From: Sphingobium phenoxybenzoativorans
GTDB taxonomy: Bacteria; Pseudomonadota; Alphaproteobacteria; Sphingomonadales; Sphingomonadaceae
Assembly: GCF_001757355.1 (NCBI RefSeq)
Contig: NZ_MINO01000017.1
Location: forward strand, 1-64,000
Reading direction: 5' to 3'
Length of the DNA: 64,000 bases
The translations under genes and the position numbers were made by a program. Numbering within the stretch: position 1 is the first letter of the stretch; the number at the start of each line of letters is the position of its first letter. Of this stretch, positions 34,812 to 46,240 are shown piece by piece. The notes beneath the pieces are model-generated. The model ran no database searches, was not told where the DNA came from, and saw only the letters and a program-made list of their open reading frames with translations.

Positions 34812-36014
34812 TCATGCGGTTACCTCTTTGGGCTCTTGCCGCGTGCCGACGACCGACTTGCGCCGGCTGGCCACCAACTCGGCTGCCTTACGCACCGGGT
34901 CATCCTCGGTGTGGACGTAGCGCATGAACATCGCCACGGTCTTGTGCGCGGTCAGCGCCATGCCGACCTTGACGGGGATGCCGGAATTGGCAATGTCGGT
35001 TGCCGAGCGATGACGGATACCGTGGGTGCCCACCTTTGGCACGCCGGCACGCTCAAGGATGCGCCGCCATGCCGAGTAGTAGGCATGGGGGCTAAGTGCC
35101 TTGTCGTGATCCTGGATGGATGGGCAGACATAGGGCGAATTACCGTAGCGAGGCGCGTTCGTCAGCAGCCGGCGGGCTTCCTCGCTCATCGGCTTGGACA
35201 TATCGCCCGTCTTGCTGTCCGGCCAGACAACCCGGCCATTGGGCAAGTCGAGCCAGTCCCACTGCAACAGCAGGATCTCTGACATGCGCGCCGCGAACTC
35301 GAATTGCAGCCGGACGGCCAACAAATAGATCGGGTGTTCCAGCCCCTCGGCCTCGGCCTTGTCCAGATAGGCGAACAGGCTGACCATCTGCTCGTCGGTG
35401 ATGAGGCGGGTCGAGCCTTTCTCCGGGTACTTGGGTACATGGCGGCAAGGATTGGAACCGTCGGGCCGGTAGCCCCACAGTTCGGCCAGGTTGAGCATCT
35501 TGCGAACGAGCGACAGCACGCGGTTGGCCTGCGTGGGTGACTTCTCCATGCGCTTCATCAGCGCAGTGATGTCGTGGCGGGTAACCTCGTGGACCTTCTT
35601 GGTTCCGAAGGCTGGGATGACGAAGTTATCGATCTGGTACTGGTAGCCGGCCTGCGTACTTGGTTTGTTGTGCAGCTTGGAGTGGTCTTCCATGAACCGG
35701 CTGCACAGTTCCTTGACCGTCGGCGCCTTCCGGGCCTCGGCCTTGTCGTGACCGGGGTCGCCGCCGCGCCGGATTTCGGCTAGCCAGTCCTGCGCCAGCG
35801 ACCGCGCCTGCTCGACGGTCAATTCGCCGAACTGGCCCAGCGCCGGTTTGCGGCGCACGCCGGAGTTCGTGCGGTACTGAAGCATGAATACCTTGCGGCC
35901 ACTTGGTGTAACCTTGCATAAGAAGCCCGGAACAATCGTGTCCCGGAGTTCAACGTCGCAGGTCTGTGCCTGAGCCGCGTCAACAACGCTTTTGGTCAGC
36001 TTGATCTTTGCCAT
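34812..36014 (-). CDS. int: Tyrosine-recombinase integrase of the ICE
   Basis: Site-specific recombinase of 400 residues. It has a DUF4102-like N-terminal arm-binding domain (about 1-90), a SAM-like core (about 100-185) and a catalytic domain. Catalytic residues are visible: Arg in FAARMSEIL (about 240), HGIRHRSA (about 330), LTAHKT (about 357) and the nucleophile Tyr in MRYVHTEDD (about 367). It lies at the outer end of the element, reading inwards, as in Tn4371-family ICEs, and about 150 bp from the inferred junction. Confidence 0.93.
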   Translation of the reverse strand: MAKIKLTKSVVDAAQAQTCDVELRDTIVPGFLCKVTPSGRKVFMLQYRTNSGVRRKPALGQFGELTVEQARSLAQDWLAEIRRGGDPGHDKAEARKAPTVKELCSRFMEDHSKLHNKPSTQAGYQYQIDNFVIPAFGTKKVHEVTRHDITALMKRMEKSPTQANRVLSLVRKMLNLAELWGYRPDGSNPCRHVPKYPEKGSTRLITDEQMVSLFAYLDKAEAEGLEHPIYLLAVRLQFEFAARMSEILLLQWDWLDLPNGRVVWPDSKTGDMSKPMSEEARRLLTNAPRYGNSPYVCPSIQDHDKALSPHAYYSAWRRILERAGVPKVGTHGIRHRSATDIANSGIPVKVGMALTAHKTVAMFMRYVHTEDDPVRKAAELVASRRKSVVGTRQEPKEVTA

Positions 36015-36181
36015 TTGTCGCTCCTAGAGTCCCCCGATTCCAGGAGCCGGCTAGGAGCCAGGCGAAAGAGAACCGGGGCGGTTTGCATCCCGCACCGGCA
36101 TATAATCCAAGACGTTGGCTTTACGGAAAACCTGCTATAGCAAGCTGCATCCAAGCCCAGCGTTACCCCGGTGCGGACTCC
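36015..36181. other. Inferred right end (att) of the ICE
   Basis: The 167 bp between int and the first codons that read as chromosomal protein. It has a short direct repeat (GGAGCCGGCTAGGAGCC) and an AT-rich patch (GCATATAATCC). The exact crossover cannot be fixed from one junction; homology of the MBL protein begins near 36165-36182. A TTTTTCAT-type core was not found. Confidence 0.5.
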
Positions 36182-36832
36182 ATGCTCTGGCTTAAAATCC
36201 GTCCGGCCATCGATCGGCTGGTCGATGACTGGCAGGCGAAGCACGACAACGCAAAGGTTCGTCTCATCATTGCCCACTCGCATGGCCATGGCGATCATCA
36301 TGCCGGGGACGACGAATTCCGCGACCGGCCCGACACGGACATTGTGGGCCTGACGCCGAAGGACGTCGCGTCATATTTCCACATCAGCGATTGGCCGCGC
36401 GACATTGCCCGCTTCGACCTGGGCGGGCGCGTTCTCGACATCATCCCTACGCCCGGTCATGAGCCTGCGCACATCATGGTCTATGACGGCCGGACGCGAT
36501 TGTTGTTTTCCGGCGACATGCTCTACCCGGGAAGGCTCTACGTGCCGACCGACAAGTTCGGCGAGTTCCGCGCCAGCGCCGACCGCCTTGCCGCCTTCGC
36601 CGCCAAGCATCCGGTCCGCGCATTGCTTGGCGCGCACATTGAAATGACGACCACGCCCGGACAGGATTATCCAATGGAGGCGGCAACGCACCCGCTGGAG
36701 CATCCGCTGCCGCTCAAGCCAGAGGCGATCACCATTCTCCAGCATATGGCCGCCAAGGCCGGTCCGGCCCCGGTGATCGACCGGGCAGCCGACTTCATCG
36801 TCTATCCGGTTCCTCCCAGACCTGCCCCCTGA
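36182..36832 (+). pseudogene. 5'-truncated MBL-fold hydrolase at the ICE junction
   Basis: The frame continues leftwards into ICE sequence, but protein that looks native begins near GADSMLWLKIRPAIDRLV. The zinc motif HSHGHGDHHAGD falls only about 35 residues after this, whereas MBL-fold proteins have about 80-110 residues before it, so the first strands and leader are gone. Further MBL residues remain (IPTPGHEPAHIMVYD, LFSGDMLYPG, LLGAHIEM). Likely cut by ICE insertion; the missing 5' part should lie at the other end of the ICE. Confidence 0.7.
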
Positions 36833-36897: not shown

Positions 36898-37377
36898 TTA
36901 AGCAAGGCTCTCTGCAGGCCATCTCGCATTCCCCTTGATCCTCCGCCGGAGGACCGCGTCGAGCGACCATTGGCCGCCACCCAGGGCGACGAGCGGCAGC
37001 ATCAGTCCCGCCCAGCTCAGATGCGTCGGCCATGCGTCGGGATAGACGAATAGCTGGATGGTCAGCGTCATGGCCAACAACGCCGAGGCCGCACCCCGCG
37101 TACAGAGCCCAAGCACGAGCAGGATCGGGAAGATGTGCTCGGAATAGGTTGCTGCGTGCGCCGCAATTTCCGGCGGGATGAGCGGAAGGGCATATTCGGT
37201 ACGAAACAGATCGTAGGTGCCCGGCGTGATGGTCAACACGCCTTCCACCTTCGTCCGCCCGGACAGAAAAAACACTGCCGCAATACCGAGCCGGTCGACG
37301 AGCAGTAGAAAGCTGGTTGGCAGGATGAAGCGGGCCGCGCTGCTCCCGCGGTCATAGAGATCGATAAATGATTGCAT
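36898..37377 (-). CDS. DoxX-family membrane protein of the bufferin locus
   Basis: Integral membrane protein of about 159 residues with four hydrophobic segments (about 22-45, 72-92, 98-118 and 125-145) and the DoxX pattern ([30 protein letters not shown]). It follows the BufA1-type gene by 70 bp on the same strand. DoxX genes are regular partners of bufferin operons (GigT in Cupriavidus); a redox or membrane role is suggested, not proven. Confidence 0.87.
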
Positions 37378-37447
37378 GATGTCATCCTTTTCGGACGGAT
37401 GGCGTCGCACCCGTACAGCGAGCGGGCCGTACGGGCGCGCGCCACGG

Positions 37448-37720
37448 TCAAACCTTTGGCGTCAGCGATCCCGGCCCCTTGGGCGTCTTGATCTGCGTGC
37501 AGGTTCCTGCCTTGACGAGCTTCCACGCATCGCCCTGATAATCGGTTCTGGAGGTGCCTGCGCAGCTCGTTCCGGCGCCCGCCTTGCAATCGTTTTTGCC
37601 GGCAAGGGAAACACCGTAGCATTTCTCCATCTTGGCGGTGTCGGCCGCGTGCGAAACGGTAGCGTTGCCAGCGAAGGCCAGCGCGAGAGAGGCGGCGATG
37701 GCCGCATGTGTGGATGTCAT
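37448..37720 (-). CDS. bufA1: BufA1-type bufferin precursor (DUF2282)
   Basis: Precursor of 90 residues with a Sec signal (about 1-25, ending VSHAAD). The core has four cysteines in the BufA1 arrangement: [13 protein letters not shown], then GTSCAGTS and a final GTC. In this family DUF692 enzymes convert core Cys residues to copper-binding heterocycles and the peptide is exported to the periplasm to sequester copper. A GTAACC-N16-CGAA promoter lies about 100 bp upstream. It is divergent from the sigma factor gene. Confidence 0.87.
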
Positions 37721-37817
37721 TCCTATTCTCCAATTGAAAGGCGCGCCCTTCGCGCGGCGGCCGGTAAATGGTCCGCCGCGCGGTGACCGATGGGGGCTAT
37801 GCGGTCACGATGGCCTT

Positions 37818-37843
37818 TTCGAAGCGCAAGGCGGCGCGGTTAC
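37818..37843 (-). promoter_or_regulatory. SigF-type promoter of bufA1-doxX
   Basis: On the minus strand GTAACC (37843-37838), exactly 16 bases, then CGAA (37821-37818). The same -35/-10 pair and spacing occur twice more in this locus. It faces bufA1. Confidence 0.85.
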
Positions 37844-37877
37844 AGAAAAGAATTTTCGCATCCTCGCCGGCCAGGCT

Positions 37878-37903
37878 GTAACCTCGGCCCCGCCTCGACC
37901 GAA
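37878..37903 (+). promoter_or_regulatory. SigF-type promoter of the sigma factor gene
   Basis: GTAACC at 37878-37883, 16 bases, CGAA at 37900-37903, on the plus strand, 18 bases before the sigma factor ATG. This implies positive autoregulation and a very short leader. Confidence 0.85.
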
Positions 37904-37921
37904 TGGATGACGGGAGCGCGC

Positions 37922-38458
37922 ATGAAAGCCGGTGAGGATCAGTTGAAGCAATGGATGATCGGCGGCCTTAGTGGCGACGCCGCCGCCCACGCGTCGCTGC
38001 TTCGCGCAATCGTTCCGCTGCTGCGCGTCTTCTATCAGCGGCGTTGCGGCTCCCAGGCGGAATTTGTCGAGGACCTTGTGCAGGAAGTGCTTATCGCCGT
38101 TCATACCCGAAGGGCCACCTATGATGTGAGCCGCCCTTTTTCAGGATGGCTGTTCGCCATCGCCCGTTACAAGATGATCGACCATTTCCGCAGAAACGGC
38201 CGCACAGTCGCAATGGACGATATAGAGGATGTGGCCCTGGCGGACGATTTCGAGGCATCGAGCATCGCCCGCCTGGATGTGAACCACTTGCTCGATACGC
38301 TACCCGCGAAGCAAGCGCATGCGATCCGCGCAACCCATATCGACGGCCTTAGCGTCGCTGAGGCGGCGGACCGGGCCGGCATTGGCCAGTCCGATATCAA
38401 AGTATCAGTTCATCGCGGGATCAAGGCGCTGGCGGCGCGCATCCGGGGAGATGCGTAA
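37922..38458 (+). CDS. sigF: ECF sigma factor (SigF-like)
   Basis: Sigma-70 family protein of about 178 residues starting at ATG 37922. Region 2 (about 20-90: LLRVFYQRRCGSQAEFVEDLVQEVLIAVHTRRATYDVSRPFSGWLFAIARYKMIDHFRR) and region 4 (about 118-172: LLDTLPAKQAHAIRATHIDGLSVAEAADRAGIGQSDIKVSVHRGIKALAARI) are complete. The stop and the anti-sigma start overlap as TAATG. In Caulobacter, SigF with NrsF responds to oxidative and heavy-metal stress and controls DUF2282 genes, as would fit here. Confidence 0.9.
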   Translation: MKAGEDQLKQWMIGGLSGDAAAHASLLRAIVPLLRVFYQRRCGSQAEFVEDLVQEVLIAVHTRRATYDVSRPFSGWLFAIARYKMIDHFRRNGRTVAMDDIEDVALADDFEASSIARLDVNHLLDTLPAKQAHAIRATHIDGLSVAEAADRAGIGQSDIKVSVHRGIKALAARIRGDA

Positions 38459-39099
38459 TGAATACTGAAGCGCTTATCGAAAGCCTGACGCAGAATGTCC
38501 CCCCCGTCCGCCGCAACGCCGTTGGCTGGCGTCTGGCGGTTGGCCTTATCGGGGGCGGGATGGTGACGATCATTGTCATCGCCCTGATGCTGGGGCTTCG
38601 CTCCGACCTCGATCTTGCAATGCGGGGTTTCAATTTCTGGATGAAATGGACCTACACCATTTCGCTCGGCACGATCGCCATATGGGCGACCGCACGGCTG
38701 GCGCGGCCTGATGGCGCACGTCCCCCGTCCCTGTGGCTTGTCGTGTTGCCATTGGCCGCGCTGGCGGGATTTGGCGCTGTCGAGTTGGCGCGTACGCCGT
38801 CCGCCGATTGGCTGGCGATGTGGCTGGGCCATAGCTGGAGGATATGTTCGCTGATGGTGCTTCTGCTGTCGGCGCCGATCTTCATCGGCTTTCTCTGGTC
38901 TTTCCGCAGGCTTGCGCCCACACGGTTGCGGGCGGCAGGCGGCACCGCCGGGCTGGCTGCGGGTGCGTGGGCGGCAACGCTCTATTGCCTCCATTGCCCC
39001 GAAGTCTCCGCGATATTTGTCCTGACATGGTATACGCTGGGCATAGTGCTGGCGGCCGGCGTCGGCGCGCTTCTGGGACCGCGCGTTTTGCGCTGGTAG
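38458..39099 (+). CDS. nrsF: NrsF-like anti-sigma factor (DUF1109)
   Basis: Inner-membrane protein of 213 residues with six hydrophobic segments (about 25-47, 60-78, 93-113, 128-147, 160-182 and 186-207), the DUF1109 layout. Two cysteines lie between TM5 and TM6 (LYCLHCPE), where NrsF senses metals or oxidants. It overlaps the sigma gene by 1 base (TAATG), so the two are translated together. Confidence 0.9.
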   Translation: MNTEALIESLTQNVPPVRRNAVGWRLAVGLIGGGMVTIIVIALMLGLRSDLDLAMRGFNFWMKWTYTISLGTIAIWATARLARPDGARPPSLWLVVLPLAALAGFGAVELARTPSADWLAMWLGHSWRICSLMVLLLSAPIFIGFLWSFRRLAPTRLRAAGGTAGLAAGAWAATLYCLHCPEVSAIFVLTWYTLGIVLAAGVGALLGPRVLRW

Positions 39100-39117
39100 G
39101 AAAATTTGCCGGACCGC

Positions 39118-39143
39118 GTAACCGCTGCCAGCCAAACTCCGAA
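39118..39143 (+). promoter_or_regulatory. SigF-type promoter of bufA2-bufB-bufC
   Basis: GTAACC at 39118-39123, 16 bases, CGAA at 39140-39143. It lies 40 bases upstream of the second precursor gene and just after the nrsF stop. It is the third identical motif in this locus. Confidence 0.85.
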
Positions 39144-39183
39144 ATCCCAGTGCCATACATCAGGCATCCACAGGAGAATGACT

Positions 39184-39450
39184 ATGAACAGCATCGCATC
39201 CGGCGCAGGTTACGCGGCCTCGGCCGCCCTTGTCGCCATCGCCGCCAGCGCGGCCGTCGCCCCGGCCTTTGCCGCCGATGGGGCCAAGGAAGTCCATTGC
39301 TACGGCATCAATAGCTGCAAGGGCACATCGGACTGCAAAACGGCCAAGAACGAGTGCAAAGGCCAGAATGAATGCAAAACCCAGGGCTTCAAGATTCTGA
39401 CCACGAAAGCCTGCGCAGCCGCAGGCGGCACCCTTACCGAACCCAAGTGA
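39184..39450 (+). CDS. bufA2: BufA2-type bufferin precursor (DUF2282)
   Basis: Precursor of about 88 residues. The ATG at 39184 is preferred because AGGAG lies seven bases upstream; the ATG at 39178 is too close. Signal peptide of about 31 residues ending FAADG. The core has six cysteines in a Lys-rich pattern ([32 protein letters not shown], broken here by no stop), with another Cys further on. It differs clearly from BufA1. The DUF692 gene follows 54 bp later. Confidence 0.87.
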
Positions 39451-39504
39451 CGCGACGGGATCCGGCCGCCCTCTGGCCGGATCCCGACCTTCGGGGAACG
39501 ATCC

Positions 39505-40332
39505 ATGACCAAGCCCGAAATTTTCCGCTATGGCCTCGGCCTGCGCAAGCCGCATTATCAGGATTTTCTGGAGCGGCGGGTGCCCGTCGATTTTGTCGAG
39601 GTCATCTCTGAAAACTTCATGATCGATGGCGGCCGTCCGCTCGACATCCTGCGGCGCGTGCGCGATCGTTATCCCGTTGCCCTGCATGGCGTATCAATGT
39701 CGGTGGGATCGGCCGATGGTCTGGACCGCCGCTATCTGGCGCGGCTTAGACAGCTCGTCGATGAAATAGATCCCATCTTCGTTTCGGATCATCTGTGCTG
39801 GACGCGAATAGACGGTTTCCAGTCGCACGACCTGTTGCCTCTGCCATACACGCAGGAGGCTCTTGATTGCGTTTGCGCCAATGTCGCGCAGGCGCAGGAT
39901 ATGCTGGGCCGCACCATGCTGATCGAAAACCCGTCAAGCTATATCGCCTTTGCAGATTCGGAGATGACCGAATGGCAATTCCTTGATGCGTTATGCGCGC
40001 GCACAGGGTGTGAATTGCTGCTGGACGTCAACAACATAGTCGTCAGTGCAGCCAACCACGGCTTCGACGCCATCGACTATCTGCATGGCATTCCCGCTGC
40101 CCATGTCCGCCAAATACATCTTGCAGGACATAGTCAGGGCGAAGATCTGCTGGTCGATACGCATGACAGGCCCGTGCCGGAATCCGTGTGGGCGCTCTAT
40201 GCCTGCGCTCTCGATCGGCTGGGTCCGGTCGCGACGATGATCGAACGTGATGACGACATCCCGCCGCTGGAAACATTGTTGATGGAACTCGACATCGCCC
40301 GCGCGGTCCAGCCATCGCGGAGGGCGGCATGA
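39505..40332 (+). CDS. bufB: BufB, DUF692 multinuclear iron oxidase (MNIO)
   Basis: Enzyme of 275 residues of the DUF692/MNIO family that modifies Cys residues of the precursor peptide using two or three iron ions and oxygen. TIM-barrel motifs are evident: LHGVSMSVGS (about 52-61), FVSDHLCWT (about 92-100), IENPSSY (about 141-147), LDVNNIVVS and IHLAGHS (about 215). Its stop overlaps the bufC start by 4 bp. It is the maturase for one or both precursors. Confidence 0.92.
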   Translation: MTKPEIFRYGLGLRKPHYQDFLERRVPVDFVEVISENFMIDGGRPLDILRRVRDRYPVALHGVSMSVGSADGLDRRYLARLRQLVDEIDPIFVSDHLCWTRIDGFQSHDLLPLPYTQEALDCVCANVAQAQDMLGRTMLIENPSSYIAFADSEMTEWQFLDALCARTGCELLLDVNNIVVSAANHGFDAIDYLHGIPAAHVRQIHLAGHSQGEDLLVDTHDRPVPESVWALYACALDRLGPVATMIERDDDIPPLETLLMELDIARAVQPSRRAA

Positions 40333-41099
40333 GTTTGCTCGCCATGCAGCGCAATTTTCGCGATCGCCTGCAGCAGGAGTCCCCTGCCGTTACGGACAGC
40401 TTTGGCAGTTCGGCGGCGCCGGGTCTGAGGGTATATCAGAACACCTATCGCGCTCAATTGATCGACTGCCTTGCCTCCACCTGTGAGCAGCTTCGCGCCT
40501 GGATTGGCGATGAGGCGTTCTTCGCCGCTGCGGCGACGCATATCGACCGGTCTCCGCCGCATGCATGGACGCTTGACGCCTACCCGTCCAGCTTCCCTTC
40601 GACCTTGGCGGATATCCATAGCGACAGCCCCGAAATCGCCGAATTGGCTTGGCTGGAGGTCGCGCTGGCGGATGCCTTTGTCGGACCGGACCATGATCCA
40701 CTGCCGCCAAGCGCGCTCGCGGACGTGATGTGGGAGGACGCGGTTCTTCTGCTCACGCCAAACATGCGATCGCGCAGCATGGGCACGAACGCCCCGGCCA
40801 TATGGTCAGCGCTGGCCGCAGCGCAGGAGCCGCCAAACGCCATAACCCTGCCCACGCCGTCCCACGTCCTCGTCTGGCGGTCCGGCTTCACATCCTGCTT
40901 CCGTATTCTGGAAGCGGACGAAGCCGCAGCGATCGACGCCATGGCCGCGGGTCAAAGTTTCGGGACCGTCTGTAACGATCTGGTTGCCCAACATGGAGAG
41001 AAGCAAGGCGTACCGCGCGCAGGAGAAATGCTTGGGCGATGGGTGAAGGATGGCCTGATTATTGGCGTGAAAGACTCCAAGCCCGGAACGATTGGCTAG
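40329..41099 (+). CDS. bufC: BufC, DUF2063 partner protein
   Basis: Protein of 256 residues with the DUF2063 domain in its N-terminal half (MQRNFRDRLQQES...GLRVYQNTYRAQLIDCLASTCEQLRAWIGDEAF, about 5-65) and a second, HTH-like half ending in a KDGLIIGV segment. In bufferin and related systems this partner recognises the precursor leader and hands it to BufB. ATGA overlap with bufB. It ends the locus. Confidence 0.9.
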   Translation: MSLLAMQRNFRDRLQQESPAVTDSFGSSAAPGLRVYQNTYRAQLIDCLASTCEQLRAWIGDEAFFAAAATHIDRSPPHAWTLDAYPSSFPSTLADIHSDSPEIAELAWLEVALADAFVGPDHDPLPPSALADVMWEDAVLLLTPNMRSRSMGTNAPAIWSALAAAQEPPNAITLPTPSHVLVWRSGFTSCFRILEADEAAAIDAMAAGQSFGTVCNDLVAQHGEKQGVPRAGEMLGRWVKDGLIIGVKDSKPGTIG

Positions 41100-41190: not shown

Positions 41191-41937
41191 TCACCGGATG
41201 GTTTCGGCATTGTCGACCGTGATCGTCGTGCCGGTGATGTGGCGCGATTCTTCCGAGGCCAGGAACAGGACCAGATTTGCCACATCTTCTGGCTTCCCCA
41301 TGCCGAGGGCGCGGTTCTGTTCAAGGCCGGGATCGTTTTCATCCAGTTCAGAGACTGCCTGCGCCGTCATCGGCGTCTCTATTCCGCCTGGCGCGATCGT
41401 ATTGCACCGGATCTGATAGCGTTTCTCCTGACAATGCACGGCTATGCTGCGGGTCATGGCGATGATGCCGCCCTTGGCTCCGGCATAGGCGGGAATGGCG
41501 CTGATCCCCTTGATCCCGCCAATCGAGGCCATGTTGATGATCGAACCGCCACCGCCCTTGGTCATGAACGGAATTGCGGCCTTGCAACCCAGGAACGTGC
41601 CGTCCAGCATCACATCGACTTGCAGCTTGTAATCCGCGTAAGACATATCCTCGACAGAGCCGAAGCGCACAATTCCGGCATTGTTGACCAATATGTCCAG
41701 GCGGCCGAATGCCTTGATCGTCTCCGCTATCACTTCGGCCCAACGGCTTTCGCTGCGCACGTCATGGTTGAGATAGATCGCGCCGGGAATTTCCGCCGCG
41801 ACCTTCGCGCCCAATTCATCCTGTACGTCCGTGATGACGACCTTTGCGCCCTCACGCGCCAGGACCCTGGCGTCCTCCGCGCCCAGTCCAGACGCGCCGC
41901 CGGTAATGACGGCAACCTTACCTTCAATGCGTCCCAC
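41191..41937 (-). CDS. Short-chain dehydrogenase/reductase
   Basis: Classical SDR of 248 residues: cofactor motif TGGASGLG (residues 12-19), NNAG (about 87-90), catalytic Ser in ASIGG and YAGAK (about 149-153), then APGGIETPM. Asp after the second strand (ITDVQDE) predicts NAD+ preference. It lies 41 bp downstream of the Rieske oxygenase gene. It could dehydrogenate a diol or alcohol made by that enzyme; the substrate is unknown. Confidence 0.9.
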   Translation of the reverse strand: MGRIEGKVAVITGGASGLGAEDARVLAREGAKVVITDVQDELGAKVAAEIPGAIYLNHDVRSESRWAEVIAETIKAFGRLDILVNNAGIVRFGSVEDMSYADYKLQVDVMLDGTFLGCKAAIPFMTKGGGGSIINMASIGGIKGISAIPAYAGAKGGIIAMTRSIAVHCQEKRYQIRCNTIAPGGIETPMTAQAVSELDENDPGLEQNRALGMGKPEDVANLVLFLASEESRHITGTTITVDNAETIR

Positions 41938-41978
41938 GCTTCATTATCCTCTTTATGATTTTCGTTGGCGGGGGCGGG

Positions 41979-43316
41979 TCAGCGCCGCCCCTCCAGATAA
42001 TCGTTGATAACCTCGTGGAAACGGCGCACTCGCGCCTCCTGCCCTGCGAGATAGCAGTCCCCAAAGGCCATGGAGCGAAGGCCGCGCTGTTGCGTTTCGG
42101 CGAGCGACAGGTCCTGCGTCAGGAAGTCGCCCTGCGCGATCGTTGCCTGATAATCGTCGAAACTGCCCAGTTCCTGACTGGCTTCCCGATAGGGACGCAT
42201 GCCGTACAGGGTGGCGACCTCTTGCGCGCCCTTCACATGGGGCACCAGATACCAATAATCGAATGTCGACCAGTTCGGATCGTCTGCATCGGGTTCCGTG
42301 CGGAATACGTGCAATCCTTCGGGTGTCGCAGTCAGGGTGAGGTTTGGGAAACAGGTGTGATGCATCTGGTCCGTCAGCTCATCCTCGGTCAGTTGCTCGA
42401 AATATTCAAAGCCCCGCGCCGGCCCCAAGGCGCGACGCGCACGCTGCAGCGCCAGCCGTCCCTCCTGGGCGCGGCCTTCATAGTCTGCCGGATCAATATC
42501 CCATTCCTGCAAAAGCGACGCCCAGAGCGGCTTGACCTGCTGCGCATCGGGATAGCGGCTCGAAGGCTGCAGCTTCTCGATCATCCGGTTGTGCCCGTTG
42601 GGGTACATCTCGAATATCGTCGTCGAATAATGGTCGTCGATCATGGGCATGAACTGGGGGTGCACGACCGGGATATGATAGGCTTCATTGAAATTGTCGG
42701 AGGCGAATTTCCAATTGGTATTGACCCGCAATGTGCGCCAGACGACCCGCGTATAGTTTTCCAGGTCCCGGCCCTGAAAAAGCGTGGGAATAGGATCGAG
42801 AAAATCGAGCAGCGGTCCTGCATCGGGATCGAACGACCAGAAGATAAACCCGCCCCATGTTTCGCAGCGGAGCTCCTTTAGGCGAAGCTTTCCGCACGGG
42901 TCGCCCTGCGCAAAATCTTCCGGGTCCTGCACCCAGTCCAGCCGGCCGTCGATATTCCATTTCCACCCATGATAGGGGCAACTGAATGCGCCGCTGACAG
43001 CGCCGTCGCTCACGTTCACCAGCCGGTTCCCGCGGTGCATGCAGACGTTGAAGAATGCGCGGATGCTATCATCCTGCTGTTTCACGATCAGCACCGATTC
43101 ATGGCGGAAATTGTGGACGATGAAATCGCCGGCTTCCTCCAGTTGCGAAACGCGGCCGCCGACATGCCAGACGCGTTTCCACAAATGCTCCCATTCGCGA
43201 TCCGCGAAATCCTTTGACCAGTAGCGGTCGCCGGTAATCGCGTCGCCGCGCGGAGCGGGCTGCGCCGCATCGGGATGCGTGGGATAGGTCGGGCGGGTAT
43301 TGGCTGTCGTGGCCAT
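41979..43316 (-). CDS. Rieske non-heme iron oxygenase, alpha subunit
   Basis: Ring-hydroxylating oxygenase large subunit of 445 residues. The Rieske [2Fe-2S] ligands are CMHRGNRL (about 91-98) and CPYHGWKW (about 113-120). The mononuclear iron site is seen as DNFNEAYHIPVVHP (about 213-226), with a later acidic ligand expected near FDYWYLV or downstream. No beta subunit, ferredoxin or reductase lies nearby, so it may use unlinked electron carriers and may be an alpha3-type enzyme. Cluster mates: SDR, NTF2-like protein, TonB receptor, TetR. Confidence 0.92.
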   Translation of the reverse strand: MATTANTRPTYPTHPDAAQPAPRGDAITGDRYWSKDFADREWEHLWKRVWHVGGRVSQLEEAGDFIVHNFRHESVLIVKQQDDSIRAFFNVCMHRGNRLVNVSDGAVSGAFSCPYHGWKWNIDGRLDWVQDPEDFAQGDPCGKLRLKELRCETWGGFIFWSFDPDAGPLLDFLDPIPTLFQGRDLENYTRVVWRTLRVNTNWKFASDNFNEAYHIPVVHPQFMPMIDDHYSTTIFEMYPNGHNRMIEKLQPSSRYPDAQQVKPLWASLLQEWDIDPADYEGRAQEGRLALQRARRALGPARGFEYFEQLTEDELTDQMHHTCFPNLTLTATPEGLHVFRTEPDADDPNWSTFDYWYLVPHVKGAQEVATLYGMRPYREASQELGSFDDYQATIAQGDFLTQDLSLAETQQRGLRSMAFGDCYLAGQEARVRRFHEVINDYLEGRR

Positions 43317-43343
43317 CAGGGGCCTCCTTGCAGAAGGGAAAAG

Positions 43344-43784
43344 CTAGCCGTGGATTTCGGCAAGCGATCCGGGCAGCGGCATCATCGCAAACATCGAATA
43401 TCGGGTGCACAGCCACCCAGAGCCGGTCTTCACCGCATCGAACGTATATTGCACGTTAACCTCAACAGTGTTCCCGTCCTTGGCCCGGCCAAGGCCCACC
43501 ACATAGGCCGTCATCGCCCCGCTTGCGCCGTCATAGCGGATGGGCCGGAAGTTGCTGATATAGTGGGAATGATGGCTCATATCCGCGAACACGCGATCAA
43601 AGAACGCCTTGATCTCGCCATGCCCATGCATCAGCGGCAGGCCGATCGCCGTAAAGTCGAGCACCGCGTCCGGGGTGAATAGAGACAACAGGCCAGCAAC
43701 ATCGTCCAGCTTGTCGACCGCATAACAATAAGCGGTCATCAGGTCCTGCAGACCTATCCGGTCTTCGAGCGGGATAGCGATCAT
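43344..43784 (-). CDS. NTF2/SnoaL-like protein
   Basis: Protein of 146 residues with the cone-shaped NTF2 fold pattern (helical N-terminus EDRIGLQDLMTAYCYAVDKLDDVAGLLSLFTPDAVLDF, then alternating strands). Such proteins are either small isomerases/dehydratases or beta-subunit-like partners of ring oxygenases; the size is near that of dioxygenase beta subunits (about 160-180), so a structural partnership with the adjacent Rieske alpha subunit is possible. Role inferred. Confidence 0.83.
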   Translation of the reverse strand: MIAIPLEDRIGLQDLMTAYCYAVDKLDDVAGLLSLFTPDAVLDFTAIGLPLMHGHGEIKAFFDRVFADMSHHSHYISNFRPIRYDGASGAMTAYVVGLGRAKDGNTVEVNVQYTFDAVKTGSGWLCTRYSMFAMMPLPGSLAEIHG

Positions 43785-43822
43785 GGCGGAACTTCTCCTC
43801 CGGTAAACGTAAGAACAAATGG

Positions 43823-43858
43823 AAAAAGGCCCGGCCGGAGGGTGTTCCTCCGGCCGGA
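43823..43858 (-). terminator. Terminator of the TonB receptor gene
   Basis: 11-bp GC stem (CCGGCCGGAGG / CCTCCGGCCGG) followed on the minus strand by GCCTTTTTCC. It begins six bases after the receptor stop and separates it from the downstream oxygenase genes. Confidence 0.82.
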
Positions 43859-43863
43859 ACCAG

Positions 43864-46095
43864 TCACCAATGCACCTTAAAATCGACGCCGAACTCGCGG
43901 GGATTGCCGAGCGACGCCAAAGTGCCGATTCCGGTCAGGTTGAGTTTCTGACCATAATATTTTTCATTGAACAGGTTGCGGGACCACAGAACCACCGACC
44001 AGGCTTCGCCGTCGGGCGCCCAGCCGAGAGTGGCGTTGACCAAGTTGATCGGCGCGACCAATTCCTCCGGCTTGCCCGTGAAGGCCGTATATTTGCTGCT
44101 GGTGTAGCTATACTGGCCGGTCGCCGTGACATATCCGCCGCCCACTGGTTGCCGGATTGAAAAGCCGACGGTGGCATTCCACTTCGGCGCATTCATCAAC
44201 CGGTTGCCGGCGAAACTGACCGGCACCGTGTTGCCCGTGCCGTCCAGAACGAACGTATCATAGGTGGTGTAATAGGCATCGAGATAGGCGAGCGACCCGG
44301 TCAATGTGATGCCTTCAACCGGCAGGGCGGTAATTTCCAGCTCAGCGCCCTTGGTCTTGGCGCCACCAGCATTGCGGATCGCGGCGCTGTTGGCACCGCT
44401 GGGGTAAGTCAGGTTCTGCGTGACCTGCATATTATTGTAATTATTATAGAATGCCGCCAGGTTCAGGCGCAGGTGCCGGTCCAGCAGATCGGACTTTATG
44501 CCCAGTTCAAAGGTGTCGAGATGTTCGGGGTTGAACGGCCCGATATCCTCTGCAACGGCGATGCGGCCGGTAAAGCCGCCTGATTTGAAGCCGCGGGCAT
44601 AATAGCCATAAAGCAGCGTGCCCGATGTGGCCTGCCAGTCGACACCGACCTTGTAACCCACATTATTCCAGGCCTTGCTGCCATTGGCCACGATCAGAGA
44701 ACCGGGGATCAACGGGTCATCAAAGGAGGAATAGCCGCCCGGTACCGTGGTAAAGGTATTCGCCGTGGTCGACGTGGCGGTCGTTTTTTCGTGGCTGTAA
44801 CGCAGACCTGCCTGCAGGCGCAGCGTATCGGTCAGATCGGCATAGAATTGTGCAAAGCCCGAAATCGACCAGTTCTTCTGATGCTGGGTTTGCGGCTGCC
44901 CCAGGCCAAGAGCGAAGCCGTCAAGCTTGCCTTCCTGCTGCAGGTCATAGGCTTGCTTGAAATAGAAGCCCCCCAGGATCATCCTGATCCGGTCGGTCAG
45001 GTCGGCATGCAGGCGCAATTCCTGAGAAAATTGATGCTGTTTCGACGTGCGATGGGTTTGCAGCAATATGGCGGATACGCCGTCATCGTCGCTGTAGAGA
45101 TCATTCTTATATTCGCGATAGCTGGTGATCGAAACCACGTCGCCGATGCCGGTTTTCAGATTTTGCGTGAGCGTCCCGTTATAGCTGTCCCGGTTATTGA
45201 AATTGGGCTGGTCGAGGCTCTGCCCACGCCTGAAATTGATGCCCTGATCGGTTTCGCCGGGCGTGTAAAACAGCTCGCCCGGTCCCGCGATCATCACCCC
45301 GGTCTGGGAGTCGTTGCGGCTCCGGTCATATCCGGCGATCAACGTCGCGTCATAATCGCCCACGGAATATTTCAGATATCCCCGCAACGACGTCATATCG
45401 CGCTTGCCCAAACGGCGATTATCCTGGGTATCGCGAAAGAACCCGTCCGAACCCGTGTGCAGAACGCTGACTTTACCCGCAAGATTTTCAGTGATCGGGA
45501 AATTCATCGCGGCGTTAATATCCAGGCGATTATAGTTGCCGTAGACAATCTGCGCCTCTCCACCGAATTTCCCGGTCGGTTGCTTCGTGATCACATTGAC
45601 GACACCGCCCGTGGTGTTCGCGCCAAACAACGTCCCCTGCGGTCCGCGCAATATTTCCACGCGCTCGATATCGAAAAGGGAAAGCAGGGCCGCGGTATTG
45701 ACGCCGACGGGCACCCCATCCACCACCACCGATACGGTCGTGCCAACATAGGGGTCGGCGTCGTTCACACCCACGCCCCGGATCGTGAAAACGGCGGAAT
45801 CGGGGGAGTTGGAAAAGCTGTTGATCTGCACATTCGGTATGGCGTTCGCCAACGCCTGAATGTTGGTGACCTGCGTACGCGCGAGCGTGTCGCCACTAAT
45901 GGCTGTGACCGCAATCGGCACCGTCTGCAGGTTTTGCGCACTTTTTTGCGCCGTAACGACGATATCCTCAATCTGTCCGGCGCCAGTGACAGCGTCGGCT
46001 TCGGCAGTTTGCGCAATCGCCTGCGGTATGCCGATCAGAAAGAGCGGCACGCTGCACGACAATATCGTGCGAAGGGTCCTGAATTTCCCCAACAT
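43864..46095 (-). CDS. TonB-dependent outer-membrane receptor
   Basis: Receptor of about 743 residues. The ATG 46093-46095 has GGGAG seven bases upstream and starts a signal peptide (about 1-30, ending AIAQTAEA). The TonB box (EDIVVTAQ) is near residue 45, the plug domain is about 55-170 (VEILRGPQGTLFGANTTGGVVNVITKQP) and the C-terminal beta barrel ends in a Phe/Trp-containing strand (FGVDFKVHW). It probably imports the aromatic or large hydrophobic substrate of the adjacent oxygenase cluster; this substrate link is by position. Confidence 0.92.
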   Translation of the reverse strand: MLGKFRTLRTILSCSVPLFLIGIPQAIAQTAEADAVTGAGQIEDIVVTAQKSAQNLQTVPIAVTAISGDTLARTQVTNIQALANAIPNVQINSFSNSPDSAVFTIRGVGVNDADPYVGTTVSVVVDGVPVGVNTAALLSLFDIERVEILRGPQGTLFGANTTGGVVNVITKQPTGKFGGEAQIVYGNYNRLDINAAMNFPITENLAGKVSVLHTGSDGFFRDTQDNRRLGKRDMTSLRGYLKYSVGDYDATLIAGYDRSRNDSQTGVMIAGPGELFYTPGETDQGINFRRGQSLDQPNFNNRDSYNGTLTQNLKTGIGDVVSITSYREYKNDLYSDDDGVSAILLQTHRTSKQHQFSQELRLHADLTDRIRMILGGFYFKQAYDLQQEGKLDGFALGLGQPQTQHQKNWSISGFAQFYADLTDTLRLQAGLRYSHEKTTATSTTANTFTTVPGGYSSFDDPLIPGSLIVANGSKAWNNVGYKVGVDWQATSGTLLYGYYARGFKSGGFTGRIAVAEDIGPFNPEHLDTFELGIKSDLLDRHLRLNLAAFYNNYNNMQVTQNLTYPSGANSAAIRNAGGAKTKGAELEITALPVEGITLTGSLAYLDAYYTTYDTFVLDGTGNTVPVSFAGNRLMNAPKWNATVGFSIRQPVGGGYVTATGQYSYTSSKYTAFTGKPEELVAPINLVNATLGWAPDGEAWSVVLWSRNLFNEKYYGQKLNLTGIGTLASLGNPREFGVDFKVHW

Positions 46096-46240
46096 CCTTT
46101 TTCTCCCAATTTTATATCGGCAAGCCGATTTTGCCGGCGCGATGACCGGTCGATTCAATGGCAACGGCGCACCGTTTCCATCTGGAACACGCCTTTGGCC
46201 TGTCCATATTTAGTGCAATCGCACCATTTTTGGGAAAGAG

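Follow-up and report, generated by a model that had tools for sequence, protein, structure and literature searches.

One Buf2-clade maturase pair beside two unlike bufferin precursors in a putative SigF/NrsF regulon of Sphingobium phenoxybenzoativorans

Can one MNIO enzyme and its partner protein mature bufferin precursors of two different families? Whether one MNIO pair matures several bufferins was stated as open in the discussion of a 2025 survey (PMC12452194; statements on published work refer throughout to the parts of the cited papers covered here), and the question is raised by a locus at positions 36898-41099 of the window, by which we mean the whole stretch of 64,000 nucleotides analysed (contig NZ_MINO01000017.1, positions 1 to 64,000, of the Sphingobium phenoxybenzoativorans assembly GCF_001757355.1). 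Here a Buf1-type (bufA1) and a Buf2-type (bufA2) precursor gene stand on either side of genes for a SigF-like extracytoplasmic function (ECF) sigma factor and an NrsF-like anti-sigma factor, and the only MNIO gene (bufB) follows bufA2 together with the gene of its DUF2063 partner (bufC). The locus probably makes two bufferins under the control of a single SigF/NrsF switch, with one Buf2-clade BufB-BufC pair maturing both precursors; that one BufBC pair may serve both is supported by the comparison of relatives set out below.

A first-pass annotation, made from the letters of the window, had proposed that two unlike precursors flank a sigma/anti-sigma switch in a bufferin locus, and the Pfam and NCBIfam matches bear this out. 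BufA1 has exactly the four Cys annotated (residues 34, 45, 53 and 74). BufA2 has exactly six (residues 39, 45, 51, 58, 64 and 77), as the annotation had counted, of which five lie in the spaced repeat and one near the C-terminus instead of all six in the repeated part. BufA2 carries four Cys-Lys dyads, matches no Pfam family and was assigned by NCBIfam NF050166. Both N-termini are hydrophobic and signal-peptide-like with an A-x-A site, as judged by eye only.

The annotation had further placed a single maturase beside the two precursors, and had named maturation of the A1 peptide by a different DUF692 enzyme elsewhere in the genome among the findings that would count against its reading. The source genome is a draft of 5.04 Mb in 202 contigs, 99.95% complete; the search returned one MNIO (PF05114), one DUF2282 (PF10048) gene, one NrsF and one NF050166 match over the cut-off (a second, sub-threshold match is bufA1 itself), and no DUF692 enzyme was found elsewhere in this draft. 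With its 202 contigs, the draft may conceivably lack a second MNIO, which weighs against a shared enzyme. The best 80 of 206 loci of named relatives found with BufB as query provide a comparison: when 40 of these 80 loci were tested, genomes with the gene order of the window held exactly one MNIO in 18/23 cases, and two to four in 5/23. Those five favour a BufA1 matured by another MNIO missed in the draft, but the 18 genomes and the near-complete draft with its one MNIO make such an enzyme very improbable.

In a tree of 140 MNIO rows, enzymes encoded directly downstream of Buf1 and those directly downstream of Buf2 (hereafter B1 and B2) are split by one branch (SH-aLRT 100, quick search), and the BufB of the window falls on the B2 side, outside the Buf1-cognate clade. 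From this tree, rows shorter than 230 aa and rows sharing the last 200 residues were removed, and nine rows with no precursor directly upstream were left ungrouped; the split was recovered again with 101 rows, including 42 of 104 Buf2-cognate rows and omitting one long-branched B1 row. Because the sole MNIO is of the Buf2-cognate clade, Buf1 here and in the relatives is an orphan with no enzyme of its own cognate clade.

Judged from its sequence, the orphan Buf1 is maintained. After removal of identical MNIOs (73 dual loci reduced to 65), all four Cys columns of Buf1 and all six of Buf2 are invariant in 65/65 dual loci, and the ratio of mean non-synonymous to mean synonymous divergence (mean dN/mean dS, counting method, 443 close pairs, saturated pairs dropped) comes to 0.24 in the Buf1 core, against 0.28 in the MNIO and 0.44 in the Buf2 core; the leaders stand at 0.55-0.60. 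A residue tried as a sign of adaptation to the B2 enzyme, that after Buf1 Cys2, is not a rule: it is Lys in 32/41 orphans of the window arrangement and 8/28 B1-cognate peptides, and Ala in 21/24 peptides of the other divergent arrangement.

An orphan could also be a relic, in that BufBC would modify BufA2 only, and BufA1, after loss of its own B1/C1, would act in unmodified form, for instance as a disulfide-bonded peptide working with DoxX in the periplasm, an alternative stated in the discussion of PMC12452194. Since two-MNIO head-to-head loci (doxX< bufC< bufB< bufA1< / bufA2> bufB> bufC>) exist in Sandarakinorhabdus, Asticcacaulis and one Caulobacter, B1/C1 may have been lost here, and single-enzyme loci could derive from this layout by such a loss. 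We consider an unmodified BufA1 unlikely, given the invariance of its four Cys, the rarity of Buf1 without any bufferin-type MNIO (2/249 family genomes, both weak matches of 40-48 bits) and a group of Buf2-less genomes, described below, that keep a B2-type MNIO with Buf1 as the sole one of the two bufferin families found.

Maturation of both precursors by the B2-type pair is further suggested by an asymmetry between the two enzyme types across the family. Genomes were assigned by Pfam score (338 bits and over for B2 versus 279-335 for B1), with a tree check for those fetched. All 30 B1-only genomes hold Buf1 and none holds Buf2, whereas among the 44 B2-only genomes Buf1 is found in 39, Buf2 in 39 and both in 35 (Fisher P 7e-16, which is a guide only, the genomes being related). 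Three genomes with partial genes (G210, G018 and G022) stand outside these sets, which are likewise unaffected by two loci, L216 (G023) and L218 (G120), whose MNIOs score above the B2 line and look like a third type. Their MNIO + DUF2063 pairs, intermediate in score, have no recognised precursor in the stretch, and carry Ser or Gly at the position equivalent to 250 of BufB.

That position is a further line of evidence. In FonB, the residue after the catalytic Asp249 is reported to contact the substrate; Lys-Cys enzymes have Phe there and Cys-Lys (Buf2) enzymes have Asp, whereas DUF2282 enzymes show no conservation, the FonB-Phe250/BufB2-Asp251 site being tied to the Lys of BufA2 (PMC13097082). 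The BufB of the window aligns to the structure 3bww in two stretches, 10-211 and 214-269, and the window ERDDD is aligned with ERDFN of 3bww. The His/Asp/Glu motifs of the active site are common to both proteins, and presumably include the metal ligands. Asp249 of BufB corresponds to the proposed catalytic base and Asp250 to the selectivity site, the latter equated with the FonB site by way of the 3bww alignment. Site 250 is Asp in 115/116 B2 enzymes with Buf2 directly upstream; in 27 B1 enzymes it is Thr (11), Ala (5), Asp (4), Gly (3), Ser (2), Asn (1) or Cys (1). In compiling these sets, L187 and L198 were dropped as the same genes as L161 and L162, and L164, L165 and L216-L220 were set apart.

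What happens to the enzyme when Buf2 is gone could be followed in one related genus (g42, 100 genomes), one member of which has an MNIO identical to that of Erythrobacter colymbi. A B2-scoring MNIO (340 bits or more) is present in 46 of these genomes, BufA2 over the cut-off in 12/46 and not in 34/46. In all 34 Buf2-less loci, Buf1 stands divergently beside the B2-type MNIO, no frame matches the Buf2 profile, and no Buf2-type motif was found in the three gaps searched. Their enzymes nest within the B2 side, the Buf2-less label needing three changes on either tree. Since the MNIO has been kept while Buf2 is gone, Buf1 is pointed to as its substrate. At site 250 these 34 enzymes have Asp in 16, Glu in 12, Gly in 4 and Ala in 2. 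B2 enzymes with Buf2 conserve 103 positions to 95% or more, and the Buf2-less set departs from only two of these, 250 and 45. When both columns were left out of the tree building, site 250 changed 10 times on 7.17 tree units of Buf2-less branches versus once on 39.08 units with Buf2 (binomial P 8e-8). Our reading is that Asp250 would be held in place by Buf2, and that Buf1 would not need it. A different locus on the B2 side, L164 (G192), has a long-branch MNIO with Asn at site 250, two tandem odd Buf1 genes (HSCAG type) and no Buf2 found, and is perhaps another independent switch to Buf1.

Taken together, these comparisons incline us, with some reserve, to suggest that the Buf2-clade MNIO/BufC is a truly bispecific maturase of ribosomally synthesised and post-translationally modified peptides (RiPPs), which would need Asp250 for the Cys-Lys sites of Buf2 and accept Buf1 without it, so that B2 could replace B1 and not the reverse. 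Such a one-way exchange would account for the frequent presence of a Buf1 orphan beside a B2 enzyme (39/44) and for Buf2 being found in 0/30 B1-only genomes, as well as the drift of the selectivity residue once Buf2 is gone.

Several observations weigh against this interpretation. A B2 enzyme does not depend on Buf1, since no Buf1 match came from 5/44 B2-only genomes, one of these having a contig-cut Buf1. The Buf2-less lineages belong to another genus and may have gained activity on Buf1 after the loss of Buf2; the change at site 45 (Pro to Gln in 28/34 enzymes, the next position differing in 3/34) may reflect some adaptation and not release alone. The kept enzyme could be serving another Buf1 gene, which 32/34 of these genomes have elsewhere, and it may also serve precursor families beyond Buf1 and Buf2, such as EGKCG types, the search having covered these two families. 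Buf1 leaders are Ala-rich and differ between arrangements, and reading orphan and B1-cognate leaders by eye gave no recognition motif shared with Buf2. Finally, where both precursors lie on one strand (gamma- and betaproteobacteria), only 2/8 genomes have one MNIO.

The first-pass annotation had called for a comparison of gene order in other sphingomonads, and the arrangement turned out to be widespread, so that a layout peculiar to this genome can be rejected. The window layout, with one MNIO, divergent Buf1 and Buf2, and sigF-nrsF between them, is found in 33/80 named loci; a further 9/80 have one MNIO and divergent precursors with no sigF between them. Both precursors lie on one strand in 10/80 (Pseudomonas, Cupriavidus, Duganella, Luteibacter, Dyella and one contig-cut Caulobacterales record), and two MNIO frames occur in 10/80, one of these probably a frameshift (L104, entered under two MNIOs though its MNIO looks split). 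Within the stretch fetched, 17/80 have Buf2 only and 1/80 Buf1 only. Among the 249 family genomes, 49 hold both precursors, and 34 of the 49 have exactly one bufferin-type MNIO, Buf1 being divergent and at most 2.5 kb from the MNIO in 31/34; in these counts the two pieces in G210 are one gene, and G018, with two contig-cut pieces, is under two or more. One locus, L158 (G225), has doxX-bufA1 / sigF-nrsF-bufA2 and no MNIO in the stretch, the only MNIO of the genome lying beside another bufA2 on a different contig.

The motif GTAACC-N16-CGAA was defined for Caulobacter SigF (PMC3511200). Three exact copies occur in the window, one before each transcription unit and none elsewhere (expected 0.04), and 0/100 shuffles had three. 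The annotation had treated the seven genes as one unit; all seven are present, but strand and promoters divide them into three transcription units, of which one is divergent, and the locus is better described as one putative regulon. The two precursors and the enzyme pair are apparently switched on together by one stress regulator. The motif is also found in relatives (counted with the window included and without de-duplication, some named and unnamed loci being the same genome): where sigF lies between the precursors it precedes Buf1 in 25/43 and Buf2 in 30/43 loci, and in divergent loci with no sigF between them it precedes Buf1 in 10/18 and Buf2 in 13/18, compared with 0 for the reversed control motif. 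In the one-strand loci, the exact motif precedes 0/9 Buf1 and 0/10 Buf2 genes. Genome-wide, nine exact matches versus 14 for the reversed control give no enrichment, so that only the clustering at the locus is significant and the motif was rejected as a marker of the whole regulon.

The sigma factor gene adjoins an NrsF/DUF1109 gene whose product has two conserved Cys, which places the pair with SigF/NrsF (ECF16); the score for NF042994 is 145.2, below its equivalog cut-off of 300, which indicates family membership and not a strict equivalog. NrsF Cys130 is kept in 87/87 and Cys180 in 85/87 NrsF frames of the loci, that of the window included, and the two are taken as counterparts of Caulobacter C131 and C181, replacement of which raised SigF-dependent expression (PMC3511200). 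By analogy with Caulobacter, membrane-bound NrsF would sense envelope metal or oxidant stress through this Cys pair and release SigF, which could then act at the three matching promoters to transcribe the sigF operon itself, bufA2-bufBC and, divergently, bufA1-doxX. BufB-BufC would oxidise Cys of both precursors to thiooxazoles, as characterised relatives do, at the Cys-Lys sites of BufA2, where Asp250 would be important, and at the two central Cys of BufA1, where it would not. Both peptides may then be exported by Sec and bind metal in the periplasm, copper being the candidate suggested by characterised relatives.

Copper might not be the main purpose. The SigF regulon could be a response to envelope oxidant or sulfur damage, a possibility to which we assign a small though real chance and which is compatible with maturation of both peptides by BufBC. 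Caulobacter SigF responds to dichromate and cadmium and controls a YedY-type gene (PMC3511200), and a Brucella ECF16-related system responds to HOCl (PMC8315932). SigF-type motifs at two places in the present genome fit this. One (G000:C82:9642-9667) is some 40 bp upstream of a gene pair, cytochrome b561 and then a molybdopterin oxidoreductase, in keeping with YedY in the Caulobacter SigF regulon. The other (G000:C83:8448-8473; L010 1501-1526) is 28 bp upstream of the start codon (ATG) of a short frame, found by eye, after which comes an msrA-type gene (PF01625, 162.8 bits); this is likely a further SigF target. These are the two at plausible promoters among six motifs outside the locus; of the remaining four, three fall within long frames, and the fourth is not closely followed by any clear gene. 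The absence of genome-wide enrichment speaks against an oxidant regulon, as do the copper binding and growth under copper stress reported for Caulobacter Buf1 (PMC12452194).

Table 1. Genes and SigF-type promoter motifs of the bufferin locus (positions in the window)
Feature	Position	Strand	Size or placement	Profile match
doxX	36898..37377	-	159 aa from ATG 37377; GTG start 37410 possible	DoxX PF07681 57.7 bits
bufA1, Buf1-type precursor	37448..37720	-		DUF2282 PF10048 86.4 bits, cut-off 22.4
SigF-type promoter motif of bufA1-doxX, GTAACC-N16-CGAA	37818..37843	-	97 bp before bufA1 ATG	
SigF-type promoter motif of sigF-nrsF	37878..37903	+	18 bp before sigF ATG	
sigF-like ECF sigma factor	37922..38458	+	178 aa	Sigma70_r2 53.1 bits, Sigma70_r4, NF009191 189.4 bits
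nrsF-like anti-sigma	38458..39099	+	213 aa	NrsF PF06532 240.2 bits
SigF-type promoter motif of bufA2-bufB-bufC	39118..39143	+	40 bp before bufA2 ATG	
bufA2, Buf2-type precursor	39184..39450	+	88 aa	NF050166 101.8 bits, cut-off 60
bufB, MNIO maturase	39505..40332	+		MNIO PF05114 366.9 bits; MNIO_BufB NF050167 387.7 bits, cut-off 310
bufC, DUF2063 partner protein	40329..41099	+	256 aa; 4-bp overlap with bufB end	PF09836 59.6 bits, cut-off 27.2

A search of BufC against the PDB by sequence gave no match at 1e-3. DNA similarity to a Sphingobium naphthae locus (74% identity) spans only positions 36956-41059 of the window and ends at both edges. On one side of the bufferin locus a tyrosine integrase (Arm-DNA-bind_3, Phage_integrase) adjoins a metallo-beta-lactamase-fold open reading frame at 34812-36014 (-) and 36008-36832 (+); the latter frame looks to be without its 5' part, its Pfam match beginning only at profile position 42. 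On the other, genes for a short-chain dehydrogenase, a Rieske ring-hydroxylating oxygenase alpha subunit, a SnoaL-like protein and a TonB receptor at 41194-46164 (-) look like an aromatic-degradation cluster.

Dual loci, Buf2-less relatives and one named residue together make the question of one enzyme for several bufferins testable. If the proposed reading is true, the pair would be a natural bispecific enzyme for thiooxazole installation, residue 250 would be a candidate sequence rule for which MNIOs take Buf2-type sites, and a single signal would yield two copper-binding peptides that differ in Cys layout.

The nearest known systems are the Caulobacter SigF bufferin operons (CC3254-3257 with sigF-nrsF CC3253-3252, and CC2907-2905), which share the same families, SigF/NrsF control, promoter motif and YedY-type regulon gene, but in which every precursor gene comes with a DUF692 and a DUF2063 gene of its own, whereas the window has one pair for both in one locus (PMC3511200). 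Both Caulobacter precursors are listed there as DUF2282. NF050166 gave no match in the C. vibrioides control genome, so that this profile may miss some Buf2 peptides. The names Buf1 and Buf2 are presumed to apply to one of these two operons each. Captophorins likewise combine an MNIO with a PME1 partner, belong to the thiooxazole class and have the same selectivity site; that work tests a Lys-Cys enzyme, and the parts of it covered describe no dual Buf1/Buf2 locus (PMC13097082). In the Sinorhizobium meliloti RpoE7 operon, DUF692 and DUF2063 genes are likewise under an ECF sigma/anti-sigma pair and a promoter of the TGTAAC...CGAA type, with one such operon and no second precursor mentioned in the parts covered (PMC6180224). 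In the open-licence literature searched, no description of a divergent Buf1/Buf2 single-enzyme locus was met. Bufferins themselves, and the puzzle of one enzyme with several precursors, are already published, and the gene content is known. Tandem-precursor bufferin clusters, and genomes with several precursors and one MNIO pair, likewise have one enzyme pair for more than one precursor (PMC12452194); the precursors of the window differ from these in being of two families, divergent and flanking sigF-nrsF, which in the dual loci here lies directly before bufA2, and this arrangement is a conserved variant.

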